NCBI RefSeq assembly: GCF_022095675.1
Contig: NZ_JAHYSG010000106.1
Coordinates: 1 to 41,871 of the forward strand
DNA from: Dactylosporangium sp. AC04546
Lineage (GTDB): Bacteria > Actinomycetota > Actinomycetes > Mycobacteriales > Micromonosporaceae
Direction of reading: 5' to 3'
Length of the DNA: 41,871 bases
In this document: positions 30,582 to 36,645 of the stretch, piece after piece
Numbering within the stretch: position 1 is the stretch's first letter
How the letters are laid out: every line of letters starts with the position of its first letter
Notes under the pieces: model-generated
Told to the model about the DNA's origin: nothing
Seen by the model: the letters and a program-made list of their open reading frames with translations, nothing else
Database searches by the model: none
Program-made: the position numbers and the translations under genes

Positions 30582-33173
30582 ATGACGAAGGGGCGTGGAG
30601 CCGGTCTGCGTCCCGTGCACGAGGTCGTCTCCCGGATCCGGTACGACGCCACGCTCGACGCGGGGCGGTTCGTCGTCGGCTACGAGGAGCGCGGCGCCGG
30701 CATCCGTGAGGCGCCGCTGCCCGCGTTCGTCGCCGGCGGGGACGTGCCGTGGCACCGGGTGCAGTACGTCAAGGCCGGCGAGCGCACCGTCTGGGACCGC
30801 CAGTCGCGGGTCGACCTCGTCTTCGGCTCCGGCGACACCCCGGCCGCCGACCTGGCCGCACTCGCCGCGCCGGCGGAGACGCCCGCGGCCACCCCCGTGC
30901 GCCGGCGGCGGACGGCCGCCTTCGACGAGGCCGCGCTGCTGCGCTTCGACGCCGCGGCCGGCGACTGGGTGCCCGCCGGGCCGCCCGCGCCGGTGCACGC
31001 CGACGCGGTCCAGGTGGCGACGTTCAACGTGCTCTCCGACGCCTACGACCGCGAGCTCACCTACCCGCACCTGCGCGTCCCGGCCTGCGTCGAGCTGCTC
31101 GAAGGGCTCGGCGCCGACGTCGTGGCCCTGCACGAGGTCACCCACGACCTGTGGGCGGCGCTGCTCGCCGCGCCCTGGGTCCGCGCCGGCTACCACGTCT
31201 CCGCCGGGCCCGACCCCGACGTGGGCTACGGCACCACGCTGCTGTCGCGGTGGCCGCTGACGCTGGAGGCGCACCGGCTCTCGGCGTACAAGCGGCTCGT
31301 CCTCGGCCACACCGTGCTCAACGGCCGCGCCACCGGGTTCGTCGCCGCGCACCTCACCAGCGACCACACCGAGGGCGCCGAGCAGCGCCGCGAGCACCAG
31401 CTGCGGGTCATCGAGGAGCGGCTCGGCCGGGGCGACCTCGCGGCCGCCGTCGTGCTCGCCGACCTCAACGTCAGCGACGACACCACGCCCGAGGTGCCGG
31501 GCTTCGCCGACGCGTGGCGGGCCCTGCACCCGCACGACGCCGGGTTCACCTTCGACCCCGCGGTCAACCCGCTCGCCGCGGTCGCCTCGCGCACCGGCCG
31601 GGCCGGGCGGCTCGACCGGATCCTGGTGCGGGGCGCGCTGACCCCGGTCGCCGTCGAACGGTTCGGCGACCAGCCGTTCGCGCCGGATCACTTCGTCTCC
31701 GACCACTTCGGCGTCACCGCGCTGCTGCAACCGGCCGAGCGGACCGTCGACGCGGCCTCGGTCCACACGTCCGCGCTCGTGCTGCGGCCGCCCGCGCACG
31801 CCTGGGCGCCGATCCAGGCGCTGCGGCAGGCGCACGACCCGTCGTACCGGCGCTGGATGCCGCACGTCAACCTCGTCTACGGCTTCGTGCCGGAGGCCGA
31901 CTTCCCGGTCGCCGCCGAGGCGGTCACCGAGGCCGTGAGCGGCCGGGCCGCGATCCGCGTCCGGCTGGCCCGGTTCCGCACGTTCGCGCACGCCGGCAGT
32001 ACCACCGTCTGGCTGGAGCCGGAGACGGAGCCGGCCGGCGCGGTGCGCACCCTGCAGGCAGCGCTCGCCGCCCGGTTCCCCGGCTGCACCGAGCAGGACA
32101 GCCGCGGCGGCTTCACCCCGCACCTCACCGTCGCCAAGCTCACCGGCCCGGCCGAGCGGATCGCCGCGACCGTGGCCCACTGGCAGCGCGAGTGGCAGCC
32201 GCTGGAGTTCACCGTCGACGCCGTCGACCTCATCAGCCGCCGCGACGCCGAGCCGTTCGCGGTGCGCCGCACGGTGCCGCTCGCCACCGGCCACCAGCCC
32301 GCCCGGCAGTTGGTGACCGAGGCCTGCCAGGCCGTGCGGCCCGGCTCCCGGGTGCACGTGGTCGGCTCGGTCCGGCTCGGGGTCGCCGGCCCCGGCACCG
32401 ACCTCGACCTGGTCTGGGTCACCACCCCCGGCGGCGACCCGCTCGCCGACCTGGCCGCGGTGCTGCCCGGCGCGCGGCTCGCCGGCGCCGTCGTGCCGGT
32501 GCTGCGCGGCGAGGTCGCCGGCGTCAGCGTCGACGTGCAGCAGGTGGCGCTGCGCGACGTCGACCGGCTCGACCCGGACACCGCCCCCGACGAGGCCGGC
32601 CGCCGCTCGATCCTCGCCGTCCGCGACGCCGACGCCCTGCTGGAGGGCCTGGACCCGGCGGTGTTCCGCCCGCTGCTGCGCGAGGTGCGCGCCTGGTCGG
32701 CCGCCCGCCGGCTCGACGGCGCCGCGTGGGGCCTGGTCGGCGGCTTCACCTGGGCCCTGCTCGTCGCCGAGGCGATCCGCCACAACGCCACGGACCTGCC
32801 CGGGTTTCTGCGGCACTGCGCCAGCCACCCGCGCCGGCCGCGGGCGGGGGAGCGGCACGCCTACTGGCCCGTGTACTCACCGACCCCGCCGGGCGTCAAC
32901 ACCACCCGCACGACGACCCGCTCCACGGCCGAGCTCGTGCAGGCGGCGTTCACCGGCGGGGGCGGCTCCCAGGCCCACGAGCGGCGCGTGCTGCTCACCC
33001 CGGACGAGACCCTCGACGGCCGGATCCTGGGCCTGATCCTGGCCCTGGAGGCGGCCGGCGCCCGGGTCCGGCCCTACCCGGCCGCCCTCGCCCTGGGCGT
33101 CGACGGCGGCGACCCCGACCGCATCGCGGCGGAGGCCGCCGCGTTCGGCGCCACGGTGACCGCGCCCGCCTAG
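30582..33173 (+). CDS. Four-module RNA-end processing protein: MJ1316 + EEP nuclease + 2H phosphoesterase + poly(A) polymerase-like
   Basis: 863 residues. (1) 10-82: MJ1316/DUF504 domain (PVHEVVSRIRYDATLDAGRF, PWHRVQYVKAGERTVWDR), proposed to bind RNA cyclic-phosphate ends. (2) 143-383: CCR4-like EEP hydrolase with N149 (ATFNVLSDAYDR), E185, H257, D294/N296 (LADLNVS), D345 (GRLDRILV) and SDH 373-375. (3) 395-565: 2H phosphoesterase with H428xN and H514xT. (4) 573-863: nucleotidyltransferase with GS (595-596), D607xD609 and D651, then WGLVGGFTWALLVAEAIR and WPVYSPTPPGVNTTRTTTRS, matching the central domain of eukaryotic poly(A) polymerases. All catalytic residues are kept. It probably trims, opens and re-tails damaged RNA 3' ends in the cytoplasm; that combined role is inferred. 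The ATG follows TACCCT by 6 bases. Its TAG stop shares CTAG with the convergent gene. Confidence 0.88.
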   Translation: MTKGRGAGLRPVHEVVSRIRYDATLDAGRFVVGYEERGAGIREAPLPAFVAGGDVPWHRVQYVKAGERTVWDRQSRVDLVFGSGDTPAADLAALAAPAETPAATPVRRRRTAAFDEAALLRFDAAAGDWVPAGPPAPVHADAVQVATFNVLSDAYDRELTYPHLRVPACVELLEGLGADVVALHEVTHDLWAALLAAPWVRAGYHVSAGPDPDVGYGTTLLSRWPLTLEAHRLSAYKRLVLGHTVLNGRATGFVAAHLTSDHTEGAEQRREHQLRVIEERLGRGDLAAAVVLADLNVSDDTTPEVPGFADAWRALHPHDAGFTFDPAVNPLAAVASRTGRAGRLDRILVRGALTPVAVERFGDQPFAPDHFVSDHFGVTALLQPAERTVDAASVHTSALVLRPPAHAWAPIQALRQAHDPSYRRWMPHVNLVYGFVPEADFPVAAEAVTEAVSGRAAIRVRLARFRTFAHAGSTTVWLEPETEPAGAVRTLQAALAARFPGCTEQDSRGGFTPHLTVAKLTGPAERIAATVAHWQREWQPLEFTVDAVDLISRRDAEPFAVRRTVPLATGHQPARQLVTEACQAVRPGSRVHVVGSVRLGVAGPGTDLDLVWVTTPGGDPLADLAAVLPGARLAGAVVPVLRGEVAGVSVDVQQVALRDVDRLDPDTAPDEAGRRSILAVRDADALLEGLDPAVFRPLLREVRAWSAARRLDGAAWGLVGGFTWALLVAEAIRHNATDLPGFLRHCASHPRRPRAGERHAYWPVYSPTPPGVNTTRTTTRSTAELVQAAFTGGGGSQAHERRVLLTPDETLDGRILGLILALEAAGARVRPYPAALALGVDGGDPDRIAAEAAAFGATVTAPA

Positions 33174-33907
33174 GCTCTGTAGGGGCTCAGGCGCCAGATG
33201 CCGAACGGGTTGTGGAAGAAGTCGTCCGGGTGCCGGACGTCGGCTCCGTGCTCGACGGTCCACCGCTTCGCGCCGGGCGCGGCCCGGAAGGTGTCGCCGC
33301 TGTAGAGCGCCGGCCGCCCGAGCAGCAGGTAGCCCGCGAACGCGTCCATCGTCGGCACGTCGTCGGCGGTGCCGCCGGCCATCTCGATGTCGGGCACGCC
33401 GAGCAGGTGCAGGCCGCAGCTGGACATGTCCGGGCCGGTCCGGACGGGCCGGCGCACCCAGGCGCGGTAGAGGGCCACGATGCGGCGGTCGGGGTTCCCG
33501 CCGGCGGCCAGGCCCGCCAGCTCGAGCCACCGCGCCCGCCCGTGCGTGATCCCGCTGCTCTCGTTCTTGACGGCCGTCGCCCCGGCCGTGAAGAGCTTCG
33601 CGACCAGGCCCAGCATCCGGGCCGCGACGTCACCGGCGGCGGCCCGCCGGACCGGCTCGGACAGCAGGTAGGCCACCGTGTCGTGCCGCTCGACGGCGTC
33701 CACGTCGGCGTCGCCGAAGGTGCCGTCGGCCGCCGCGGCCCGGAACTCCCGCTCCATCCGCGGGTCCGCCGCGGACGCGGCGCCGGCCGGGTCGAACTCC
33801 ACCCCAGGCGTCTCGCCGGCGATGCGCGCCACCAGGTCGAGGTCCAGTCCCTGGCCGAGAACGCACAGCACGTGGCGGGGAAAGACAACCTGCACCGTCG
33901 GCATCAT
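33170..33907 (-). CDS. Hypothetical protein, possibly DUF4261-like
   Basis: 245-residue soluble protein starting MMPTVQVVFPRHVLCVLGQG. Other features are TAGATAVKNESSGITHGRAR, a run with VRTGPDMSSCGLHLLGVPDI, and the tail FFHNPFGIWRLSPYRA. The SCGLHLLGVPDIEM segment recalls DUF4261-type proteins, but that is weak recall. I chose the first of two adjacent ATGs (33905-33907) because a TACCGT -10 box at 33916-33921 lies 8 bases upstream. It is convergent with the RNA-processing gene and the two TAG stops share CTAG. No functional link to that gene can be shown. Confidence 0.7.
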   Translation of the reverse strand: MMPTVQVVFPRHVLCVLGQGLDLDLVARIAGETPGVEFDPAGAASAADPRMEREFRAAAADGTFGDADVDAVERHDTVAYLLSEPVRRAAAGDVAARMLGLVAKLFTAGATAVKNESSGITHGRARWLELAGLAAGGNPDRRIVALYRAWVRRPVRTGPDMSSCGLHLLGVPDIEMAGGTADDVPTMDAFAGYLLLGRPALYSGDTFRAAPGAKRWTVEHGADVRHPDDFFHNPFGIWRLSPYRA

Positions 33908-33915
33908 GCCGTGCA

Positions 33916-33921
33916 ACGGTA
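33916..33921 (-). promoter_or_regulatory. -10 box of leaderless promoter for the 245-aa gene
   Basis: TACCGT on the minus strand, 8 bases before the ATG at 33907. Confidence 0.45.
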
Positions 33922-33956
33922 CCGCGCGACACCAAACAGCCCGGCGAAGCGGCCGG

Positions 33957-34268
33957 TCAGCGCCGCGCGGGTTCGGCCGGAGGGTCGGCCGGCGCGGCAC
34001 CGGCCCGCGCGGCGGCCGCGCGGCGGGCGCGGACGCGGTCGGTGGCGACGCGCCACAGCACGGCCGCGGCCAGACCGGCCGCCGCGGCGAACTTCACCGC
34101 CAGCTTGCCGGTCACCAGCGTCTTCACGGCCAGCCAGAGCAGCACGAACCAGGGGCCGTCGTGGCCGCGGGCCCAGATGACCAGGGCCACGACCGCCAGG
34201 GTCGTCACGGTGAAGCAGACCAGAAGCAGCGCCAGGGCCAGGGCGTTTGAGGATCGACGGTGCCGCAT
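33957..34268 (-). CDS. Small two-helix membrane protein, 103 aa
   Basis: 103 residues beginning MRHRRSSNALALALLLVCFT. Helix 1 spans about 9-32, then WARGHDGPWFVLLWLAV leads into helix 2 and a third short hydrophobic stretch (KFAAAAGLAAAVLWRVA). The tail is basic and Ala/Pro-rich (RVRARRAAAARAGAAPADPP). Family unknown. It is divergent from the Hsp70-like gene across a 232-base spacer. The ATG is the first that keeps the basic start before helix 1. Confidence 0.65.
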   Translation of the reverse strand: MRHRRSSNALALALLLVCFTVTTLAVVALVIWARGHDGPWFVLLWLAVKTLVTGKLAVKFAAAAGLAAAVLWRVATDRVRARRAAAARAGAAPADPPAEPARR

Positions 34269-34500
34269 GTTCTTGACGGTAGGAGCGGATCGGGGGCAGC
34301 GAATCGGCCTGAGGAGTACACCCGCCACCAACCTAAGGCGGTGGCCTCGATCCGCCGATGGGCGGACGCGGGGCCGCCGAATCCGGGCCTGACCCCCGCA
34401 GGTCCAGATGACCAGGCGCGGGTTCGGCGGGCCCACCCATCGATGCGCGCGGCCCGCTCCGGGGTTGTGTGCGACTTTCGATGCGTTACTCTCGCCGAGC
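34269..34500. other. Divergent intergenic spacer
   Basis: 232 bases between the small membrane protein and the Hsp70-like gene. It contains a short hairpin, TCCGCC/GGCGGA, near 34354-34369 and the plus-strand TACTCT box at 34487-34492. I see no open frame with good codon bias and no clear operator. Confidence 0.4.
34487..34492 (+). promoter_or_regulatory. -10 box of leaderless promoter for the Hsp70-like gene
   Basis: TACTCT, 8 bases before the ATG at 34501. Confidence 0.45.
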
Positions 34501-36645
34501 ATGACGGGCCCGCGGTTAGGCGTCGACTTCGGCACCTCCACGACCATCGGTGTGGTGCGCCGCCCGGACGGGCGGGTCCAGCCCCTGCTCTTCGACGGCT
34601 CCCCGCTGCTGCCCTCGGCGGTCCTGGCCGGTACCGACGGCCGCCTGCACACCGGCCGCGACGCCGACCACCTGGCCCGTAGCGCGCCCGAGCGGCTCGA
34701 GCCCAACCCGAAGCGCCGCATCGACGAGTCCCGCGTGCTGCTCGGCGACGCGGAGATCGACGTCCGTGACCTCGTCGCCGCGGTCCTCGGCCGGATCGCC
34801 GGGGAGGCCGAGCGGGTGGCCGGGCCGGTCGCCGAGGCGGTCCTCACCCACCCGGCCGACTGGGGCGCCGGCCGCCGCGCCCGCCTGGAGGAGGCGGCCC
34901 GCCGGGCCGGCCTGCGGTCGGTCACCCTCGTCGCCGAGCCCCTGGCGGCGGCCACCTTCTTCGCGTCCACGCACGGGCGGGAGCTTCCGGTCGGCTCCTT
35001 CCTCCTGGTGTACGACCTGGGCGCCGGCACGGCCGACGTGACCCTCCTGCGCCGGCAGCCGGACGGCTTCACCCCGGTCGCCTCCGACGGCCTCGACGAG
35101 CTCGGCGGACTCGACGTGGACGCCGCGATCATCCGATATCTCCAGGGTCTGTACGGCGAGCTCTGGCAGGATGCCGCCGCCCGCCGCCGGCTCTGGGACG
35201 ACGTGCGCTCCGCCAAGGAGATGCTGTCCCGGGCGAGCGGCACGGTGATCATGGTCCCGTCGCTGGGCCGGGAGGTTCCGCTCGGCCGCGAGGAGCTGGA
35301 CCGCCTGGCCCGCCCGGTCCTGGGCCCGAGCGTGGCGATGGCCCACACCCTGCTCACGGCGGCGGGGGTGGGCCGGGCCGACATCGGCGGGCTGTTCCTG
35401 GTCGGCGGGTCGAGCCGGATGCCCCTGGTCGCGACGATGCTGCACGAGACGCTCGGGGTCGCGCCGGTGGTGGCGGAGCAGCCGGAGCTGGTGGTCGCCG
35501 AGGGGGCGCTGCGGCTGACCGACCCGACACCGTCGCGGGCCCGGGCGGCCGCGAGCCTGCCCCGGCCGCTCTCCGACGCGGGCCCGCTCCCTGGCGCGGG
35601 CCCGGTCTCCAGCGCGGGCCCGGTCTCCAGCGCGGGCCCGGTCTCCAGCGCGGGCCCGGTCTCCGGCACAGGCCCGGTCTTCGGCGTGGGCCCGGTCTCC
35701 GGCGCGGGCCTGGTCTCCGGCGACGCCGCGGGGGGACCGCTGTCGATGTCGGCGCCGCCGTACGCCGCGTCGCCGATGTCCGCGCCGCCCGGCCCGCACG
35801 GCGCCGGCGCGGCCTGGCCGGACGCCGACGCGACAGCCGAGGTGCGATGGCCCCTGCCCGGTGTGGCTCCCGGCGCGGCCCGGCCCGCGTCCGGCCCTCC
35901 CTCTCTAACCGGATATTTCCGAAATGTCGGTCTGGAGAGTGAGCACCGGGAGCGGAACGAAGGCTCCGCGGCCGGTCGGCGGCGAGCGCGGAACGGCGAC
36001 CGGCGGCGGGTCGCCGTCCGGATCGGTGCGGTGATCGCCGGGCTCGCCGTGCTCACGGTCGGCGGGATCACCGCGTACCACAAGCTCTACGACGAGCCGG
36101 TCGACGTGCCGGTCGCGCTGTCGCACTACGACGGCACCCGCACCGTCGACAACCTGTGCTCCCACCTCGACCTCAGCGCGTTCCAGCCGCTGTTCGAGAC
36201 CCAGGACCGGCCGGACGAGCCCCGCTTCACCCCGTCCCAGCAGGGCCTCGACGCCTCCTGCTACGCCGACCGGGTGCACCAGCGCGGCAAGGTCCGGGCG
36301 AACATCGTCGTCAGCGTCACCGTGCGGGAGGGCAACGAGGGCGCCCGGATGATCCACCAGATCGTCGCCGGCGCCGCGAGCGTCAACGACCAGGCGGTGC
36401 AGCTCTCCGGCCTCGGCGCCGAGGCGGTGCTCTACACGGTCAGGAACGCGACGCAGCAGATGAGGTCCGAGATGACCTTCATGCTCGGCGTGCTCGACCA
36501 CAACCTGGTCTGGTCCATCCGGGTCAGCCTCCAGCGGACCGACCCGGTCGGCTGGACCGCCGCCGAGCAGAACGACGTGCGCGACCGGATGACCACCGCG
36601 ACCCGCGCCTCGTTCCCAGGGGTGACTGAGCTGCTCCTGCGCTAA
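34501..36645 (+). CDS. Membrane-anchored Hsp70-like ATPase with repeat linker and extracytoplasmic domain
   Basis: 714 residues. The Hsp70/actin-like ATPase domain (about 1-340) has GVDFGTSTTIGVV (phosphate 1), LLVYDLGAGTADVTLL (phosphate 2) and GLFLVGGSSRMPLV (adenosine). No DnaK substrate-binding domain follows. A Gly/Pro/Val/Ser linker (about 350-470) contains eight six-residue repeats of the SAGPVS type (about 360-407). A basic run precedes one membrane helix (505-525, VAVRIGAVIAGLAVLTVGGI). The outside domain (530-714) has two Cys (553, 587), a pattern like DUF3558-type domains. Thus cytoplasmic ATPase and outside sensor are in one chain, topologically like receptor kinases. The ligand and partners are unknown. 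Its TAA stop overlaps the convergent gene's TAG by three bases within CTAA. Confidence 0.85.
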   Translation: MTGPRLGVDFGTSTTIGVVRRPDGRVQPLLFDGSPLLPSAVLAGTDGRLHTGRDADHLARSAPERLEPNPKRRIDESRVLLGDAEIDVRDLVAAVLGRIAGEAERVAGPVAEAVLTHPADWGAGRRARLEEAARRAGLRSVTLVAEPLAAATFFASTHGRELPVGSFLLVYDLGAGTADVTLLRRQPDGFTPVASDGLDELGGLDVDAAIIRYLQGLYGELWQDAAARRRLWDDVRSAKEMLSRASGTVIMVPSLGREVPLGREELDRLARPVLGPSVAMAHTLLTAAGVGRADIGGLFLVGGSSRMPLVATMLHETLGVAPVVAEQPELVVAEGALRLTDPTPSRARAAASLPRPLSDAGPLPGAGPVSSAGPVSSAGPVSSAGPVSGTGPVFGVGPVSGAGLVSGDAAGGPLSMSAPPYAASPMSAPPGPHGAGAAWPDADATAEVRWPLPGVAPGAARPASGPPSLTGYFRNVGLESEHRERNEGSAAGRRRARNGDRRRVAVRIGAVIAGLAVLTVGGITAYHKLYDEPVDVPVALSHYDGTRTVDNLCSHLDLSAFQPLFETQDRPDEPRFTPSQQGLDASCYADRVHQRGKVRANIVVSVTVREGNEGARMIHQIVAGAASVNDQAVQLSGLGAEAVLYTVRNATQQMRSEMTFMLGVLDHNLVWSIRVSLQRTDPVGWTAAEQNDVRDRMTTATRASFPGVTELLLR
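35578..35721. repeat. 18-bp minisatellite, eight units, in the Hsp70-like gene
   Basis: Eight in-frame units of GCGGGCCCGGTCTCCAGC and variants. Units 2-4 (35596-35649) are identical, and outer units differ at a few bases. It encodes the linker repeats. Identical central units suggest recent slippage, so copy number may vary between strains. Confidence 0.9.

Follow-up and report, generated by a model that had tools for sequence, protein, structure and literature searches.

An MJ1316-EEP-2H-poly(A) polymerase protein of Dactylosporangium is a candidate 3'-end processing component of an actinobacterial RNA repair system

The 41,871-nucleotide contig NZ_JAHYSG010000106.1 of Dactylosporangium sp. 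AC04546, analysed here over its whole length and referred to as the window, encodes a protein in which an MJ1316 (DUF504) domain, an EEP domain, a 2H phosphoesterase and a poly(A) polymerase (PAP) follow one another in a single chain. On balance, this protein probably belongs to an RNA repair system, in which it would process 3' ends and add nucleotides. Its partner activities, as predicted from their protein families, would be an RNA ligase that depends on ATP and a polynucleotide kinase acting on 5'-OH ends. The partner genes are fused and located directly upstream in many actinobacterial relatives and occur as a separate two-gene pair elsewhere in Dactylosporangium. This reading is supported by the identity of the modules and their invariant active sites, by purifying selection, by the coupling of the genes in many relatives and by instances of joint loss. 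The first-pass annotation of the sequence had stated that no ligase core is present. This holds for the chain itself and yet is misleading, given that many relatives encode a fused RNA ligase-kinase immediately next to the gene and that a ligase gene and a kinase gene form a separate pair in the window's own genome. That relatives supply the missing ligase, fused with a kinase directly upstream, is the new finding reported here.

All-against-all comparison of neighbouring genes revealed one gene family positioned directly upstream of the MJ1316 gene and in the same direction. In eight of the eight members scanned, Pfam recognizes an RNA_ligase domain (1.9e-31 to 3.5e-35) together with an AAA_33 kinase domain (4.4e-19 to 2.6e-24); the chains carry the ligase motif EKLDGEN and a P-loop, and none of the eight has a phosphatase match in Pfam. 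A profile built from these eight chains and run over the fetched loci placed the ligase-kinase directly upstream in 12 loci, that is in L011, L012 and ten of the 28 Micromonosporaceae loci, which derive from 28 of the 32 MJ1316-positive genomes among 200 of this family. At the eight junctions recorded, stop and start of the ligase-kinase and the MJ1316 gene overlap or lie 0-2 bases apart. In genus g8, probably Streptomyces as judged from the names of the nearest relatives, MJ1316 was found in 68 of 246 genomes with 70 matches, the 30 best-scoring of which, i.e. not a random draw, were studied. Twenty of these 30 carry an EEP domain, and the ligase-kinase is located directly upstream in all 20, the ligase match falling in two frames in L135 and L147. 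The other ten encode short MJ1316-2H proteins, and no ligase-kinase was detected in any of them within roughly 1.5 kb upstream of the domain match. Coupling is thus seen in 31 distinct genomes, G023 being represented in both sets (L012 and L155); G508, with a truncated partner, is one of the 31. A full-length ligase-kinase was found in 10 of the 200 family genomes, all of them MJ1316-positive and all with the ligase-kinase adjoining the gene, in two cases in two pieces. Its co-occurrence with the 32 MJ1316-positive genomes has a hypergeometric probability of 2.9e-9 when relatedness is ignored. Moreover, the MJ1316-negative genome G489 retains remnants of ligase-kinase and PAP side by side (L125).

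No fused ligase-kinase was found in the window's genome, in which all 52 candidates were scored. An RNA ligase of 252 amino acids and, following it, a kinase are encoded by separate genes on its contig C79, and six of seven Dactylosporangium genomes have this pair intact. All seven match the MJ1316 protein, six of them along most of its length and the seventh (G398) in fragments only. In G398, internal deletions have shortened both the MJ1316 gene (L070) and the ligase-kinase pair (L121), although millions of bases separate the two loci. This shared loss is one suggestive event, not proof. The window's genome additionally contains three RtcB loci and further RNA_ligase matches (G000 contigs C20, C88, C38, C65, C115 and C36), the origin of which is uncertain because the estimated contamination of the assembly is 11.5%.

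The first-pass annotation had also described four modules with intact active sites and had suggested a domain search as a check. Domain, motif and fold comparisons confirmed the modules, and Pfam recovered both the MJ1316 and the 2H domain (Table 1). The MJ1316 domain (PF04457) scores 63.1 bits as compared to a curated cut-off of 26.3, and the protein is the sole MJ1316 match found in its genome. The EEP domain possesses the catalytic set N/E/H/D/N/D/SDH that defines its superfamily. It had been labelled CCR4-like; however, TDP2 is its nearest solved relative both by sequence and by fold, which weakens the CCR4 assignment and makes TDP2-like the better description. The 2H domain carries two Hx(T/S)-type motifs with a departure at motif 1, the last position of which is N in 46 and T in 6 of the 52 aligned sequences on which all invariance figures rest, so that most of them, including the window protein, deviate from T/S. 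In motif 2, this position is T in 45 and S in 7 of the 52. The C-terminal part displays the GS-x-DxD motif, the third aspartate and the central and C-terminal domains of a canonical eukaryote-type PAP, i.e. of the animal and yeast type. Profile and fold comparisons align it with solved PAPs over their catalytic, central and C-terminal parts, although it is shorter than these; with the window sequence alone, PAP_central falls just under the Pfam cut-off and no row for a PAP RNA-binding domain is returned. Bacterial PAP I and CCA-adding enzymes (class II) gave no Pfam or NCBIfam row at E values up to 1. In the fold lists, a missing row does not equal absence, and the 2H part was hardly tested by fold comparison. 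Comparison of the window protein with three Dactylosporangium orthologues indicates purifying selection on every module (Table 1).

Table 1. Features of the MJ1316-EEP-2H-PAP gene, with positions in the window
Feature	Position	Strand	Support
Coding sequence, 863 amino acids, MJ1316-EEP-2H-PAP protein	30582..33173	+	dN/dS 0.11-0.55 in every module
MJ1316 (DUF504) domain, residues 10-73, invariant P56-W57-H58-R59	30609..30800	+	Pfam 3.9e-17; invariance 52/52
EEP domain, residues 146-375 (fold 139-386), TDP2-like	31017..31706	+	
2H phosphoesterase domain, residues 403-555, motifs H428-V-N and H514-L-T	31788..32246	+	Pfam 8.8e-39; both His invariant 52/52
Canonical eukaryote-type poly(A) polymerase, residues 568-863	32283..33170	+	
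Nucleotidyltransferase motif G595-S596 ... D607-x-D609	32364..32408	+	Invariant 52/52
Third catalytic carboxylate D651	32532..32534	+	Invariant 52/52

In the mechanism that we envisage, a metal-independent nuclease would cut an RNA, leaving a 5'-OH and a 2',3'-cyclic phosphate, and MJ1316 would bind the cyclic end, in line with a published proposal. EEP, aided by 2H where present, would remove the phosphate to yield a 3'-OH, and the PAP module may then add nucleotides that replace lost ones or tail unjoinable ends, which is the least certain step. Finally, as their families predict, the kinase would phosphorylate the 5'-OH and the ligase would seal the break. T4-like ligases require a 5'-phosphate and a 3'-OH. 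The ligase-kinases are predicted to supply the former, but the eight scanned have no phosphatase match in Pfam, so that the 3'-phosphatase must come from elsewhere and would be supplied by the EEP/2H protein. Every partner found beside a ligase-kinase carries EEP (truncated in G508), while 2H is present in some only. 2H is dispensable, being absent from two of the 28 Micromonosporaceae loci (L053 and L063) and from eight of the 20 EEP-bearing g8 loci, which makes EEP the likelier core healing enzyme and the likeliest candidate for 3' healing. PAP is retained in both Micromonosporaceae loci and is seen in all eight g8 loci without 2H, which argues that nucleotide addition is part of the job. 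A precedent for the action of an EEP enzyme followed by a PAP is ANGEL2, which according to excerpts of PMC9525292 makes mitochondrial RNAs accessible to polyadenylation by removing their 3'-terminal phosphates, and which in vitro prefers 2' or 2',3'-cyclic phosphates. We also count in favour of a repair system a metagenome protein of 1243 amino acids (P0168), in which 2H, a P-loop type kinase, EEP, PAP and MJ1316 are joined, in this permuted order, in one chain.

RNA repair as known so far consists of healing and sealing ends. With a polymerase fused to the healing enzyme and a ligase-kinase coupled to both, the cell would be able to replace lost nucleotides or, alternatively, to choose between joining and discarding an RNA. 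A more far-reaching version, which we put forward tentatively and judge rather unlikely in its full form, is that the MJ1316-EEP-(2H)-PAP chain and the ligase-kinase constitute a machine that heals, extends and seals. The chain would clean the 3' end and resynthesise nucleotides before the ligase-kinase joins, thereby replacing lost bases, and it would additionally represent an overlooked RNA-tailing enzyme of bacteria said to be without poly(A) polymerase.

Several observations weigh against assigning the protein to a repair system. Eighteen of the 28 Micromonosporaceae loci, three of Dactylosporangium included, are without a fused ligase-kinase in the stretch fetched, and the eight-chain profile had no hit in L002-L004 or within the window. 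The 11 MJ1316-positive g252 genomes gave no match to the ligase-kinase, an absence that is weak because only six candidates were scored per genome. In G508, a full-length ligase is retained beside a truncated partner, and compact ligases occur without MJ1316 too, as in many g265 genomes. None of the 20 window open reading frames scanned is RNA-related. G398 is the smallest of the seven Dactylosporangium genomes (8.2 Mb), and its double loss could be coincidence. In a midpoint-rooted tree, the window lineage groups with Nannocystis-type proteins, outside the ligase-linked clade. Lastly, TDP2, the nearest solved EEP relative, acts on 5'-tyrosyl ends and not on 3' phosphates, and this nearness could mean that the EEP domain has a different substrate.

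The missing adjacent ligase in the window and in these 18 loci would be expected if the protein were a stand-alone heal-and-tail enzyme for RNA decay, to which the ligase link in relatives is secondary. It would remove the blocking phosphate and add a short tail, upon which PNPase and other 3' exonucleases clear the fragment. Consistent with this idea, PAP is kept where 2H is absent, bacterial tails promote decay (excerpts of PMC5872136) and terminal phosphates prevent tailing (excerpts of PMC9525292). However, the ligase-kinase lies directly upstream in all 20 EEP-bearing loci among the best 30 of 70 g8 matches, and the six Dactylosporangium genomes with the long protein have an intact ligase-plus-kinase pair, both loci being broken in the seventh; we regard a role in decay as unlikely. 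The first-pass annotation had proposed a stand-alone enzyme that resets 3' ends. Healing and tailing as such are supported at the level of anatomy and the 18 loci without an adjacent ligase remain in favour of independence, but the ligase-kinase in relatives together with the pair in the window's own genome makes a part of a repair system the likelier role. The TDP2 relationship by sequence and fold would also fit an EEP domain that removes 5'-end adducts as TDP2 does, or one that is a deadenylase opposing PAP, so that the protein edits ends or tails and heals no 3' phosphates; we consider this quite improbable. Still further down, and in our view hardly credible, is a nucleotide-signal enzyme, in which the PAP-like domain makes and EEP and 2H degrade a signal of the oligoadenylate type. 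Some 2H and EEP enzymes do degrade 2-5A, and OAS is related to PAP-type transferases; however, the transferase aligns with canonical PAPs from the catalytic to the C-terminal part, the partner genes in relatives are an RNA ligase and a kinase, and PADLOC returned no match. Membership in a defence system was rejected as well, since the protein, one fused ligase-kinase and the split ligase were all without a PADLOC match.

Comparison with known systems places the probable repair component among several partial counterparts. LENG9-type proteins pair MJ1316 with 2H, and the short MJ1316-2H genes in 10 of the best 30 of 70 g8 loci (L136, L138, L139, L140, L142, L143, L144, L146, L150 and L156) resemble this pairing; unlike LENG9-type proteins, the window protein adds EEP and PAP. 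The 2016 RNA-repair survey by Burroughs and Aravind reportedly sets out a general syntax of ligase, nucleotidyltransferase, end-modifying enzymes and kinase. The 2016 RNA-repair survey cited by PMC6514570 may already list the present architecture. In excerpts of PMC6514570 itself (2019), which comes from the same group, MJ1316 is said to recognise RNA 2'-3' cyclic ends and to occur in diverse fusions to RNA-repair domains in eukaryotes. The closest characterised RNA repair complexes are Pnkp-Hen1 and Pnkp1-Rnl-Hen1, which according to passages of PMC4411300 combine kinase, 3'-phosphatase and ligase for breaks with 5'-OH and cyclic phosphate ends, a combination that is here predicted from genes. 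In contrast to these complexes, which use phosphatase domains of two other superfamilies (same passages of PMC4411300), the candidate healing module here would be EEP with or without 2H, and an MJ1316 domain and a canonical PAP are present. A Hen1-type methyltransferase was not found among the neighbours scanned, which represent only part of the neighbours. ANGEL2 and the mitochondrial PAP resemble the present case in that an EEP phosphatase clears the terminal phosphate before polyadenylation, but they are separate eukaryotic proteins, the former of the CCR4 family, and ligase, 2H and MJ1316 are not part of the pathway as portrayed in PMC9525292 excerpts. Like bacterial PAP I (pcnB), the PAP module presumably tails without a template; unlike PAP I, it is of the eukaryotic canonical class. 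Parts of the reviews PMC5872136 and PMC8208693 describe Streptomyces as devoid of PAP I, with PNPase apparently making the tails; the exception given is a strain of Streptomyces cavourensis that acquired PAP I laterally (PMC8208693). These parts contain no mention of an MJ1316-EEP-PAP protein. In passages of a 2010 analysis (PMC2904730), Thg1 is linked with genes for polynucleotide kinase and RNA ligase, and its network position is comparable to those of RNA ligases and of CCA-adding/poly A polymerases. No description of the architecture appears in the titles and abstract openings of a limited literature search.

The architecture occurs widely, extends to eukaryotes and has already been annotated. 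A database search returned 216 homologues, which show that the architecture is not unique to the window; those among the best 120 are mostly named 'RNA repair domain-containing protein' or 'poly(A) polymerase'. Among the best 120 of the 216, the domain composition of which was read by eye from precomputed domains, all carry MJ1316 and EEP, two are without 2H (P0058 and P0060) and a minority, several of Dactylosporangium among them, are without PAP_central, as this model scores near its cut-off here. Among the matches listed, sources include Dactylosporangium, Nannocystis and other Myxococcota, Spirillospora, Streptomyces, Kitasatospora, a few further actinobacteria and the eukaryote Capsaspora with the same architecture. 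The family places a canonical eukaryote-type PAP in Streptomyces and relatives. P0141, named polynucleotide adenylyltransferase and listed for the laboratory species Streptomyces venezuelae, has all four domains. In the dinoflagellate Effrenium voratum, 2H-MJ1316-EEP are followed by a weak PAP_central match (P0166), and this permuted form and the Capsaspora protein bear on the movement of the system between bacteria and eukaryotes. A single open reading frame with the order MJ1316-EEP-2H-PAP is present in 24 of the 28 Micromonosporaceae loci; besides the two without 2H, the gene is broken in two (L060 and L070). Twelve of the 20 EEP-bearing g8 loci have 2H, and in these the fetched stretch stops before any PAP, with open frames of at least 918 amino acids. 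A phylum survey using the full alignment gave three long matches in 396 genomes with two candidates scored per genome, which is an undercount because the family and genus surveys show many more; a contig search with the single window protein yielded three Dactylosporangium loci. In the tree of 87 proteins (one dropped), the Dactylosporangium group and Spirillospora lie inside a clade containing Nannocystis proteins, apart from a clade of other actinobacteria. This position suggests transfer from, or shared ancestry with, myxobacterial-type genes. A phage origin was considered and rejected, as the one viral contig scan gave an EEP match of 30% identity only (L073:60-770).

The window neighbours were also dismissed as partners. 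The 20 open reading frames include sugar uptake and catabolism, Hsp70-like, two-component and FAD enzyme genes. D. sucinum, D. fulvum and D. vinaceum retain parts of the sugar-catabolism cassette that lies beside the MJ1316 gene. An Hsp70-like domain with a long C-terminal extension is encoded at 34408-36645 (+). A convergent open reading frame of 276 amino acids without a Pfam match (33170-34000, minus strand) overlaps the end of the MJ1316 gene by four bases, and an 82% identical copy occupies the same place in L002. In eight loci of one lineage (L048, L050, L051, L055, L056, L059, L067 and L069), a gene that by eye resembles an alcohol dehydrogenase gene stands head to head with the MJ1316 gene, which is probably inherited synteny.
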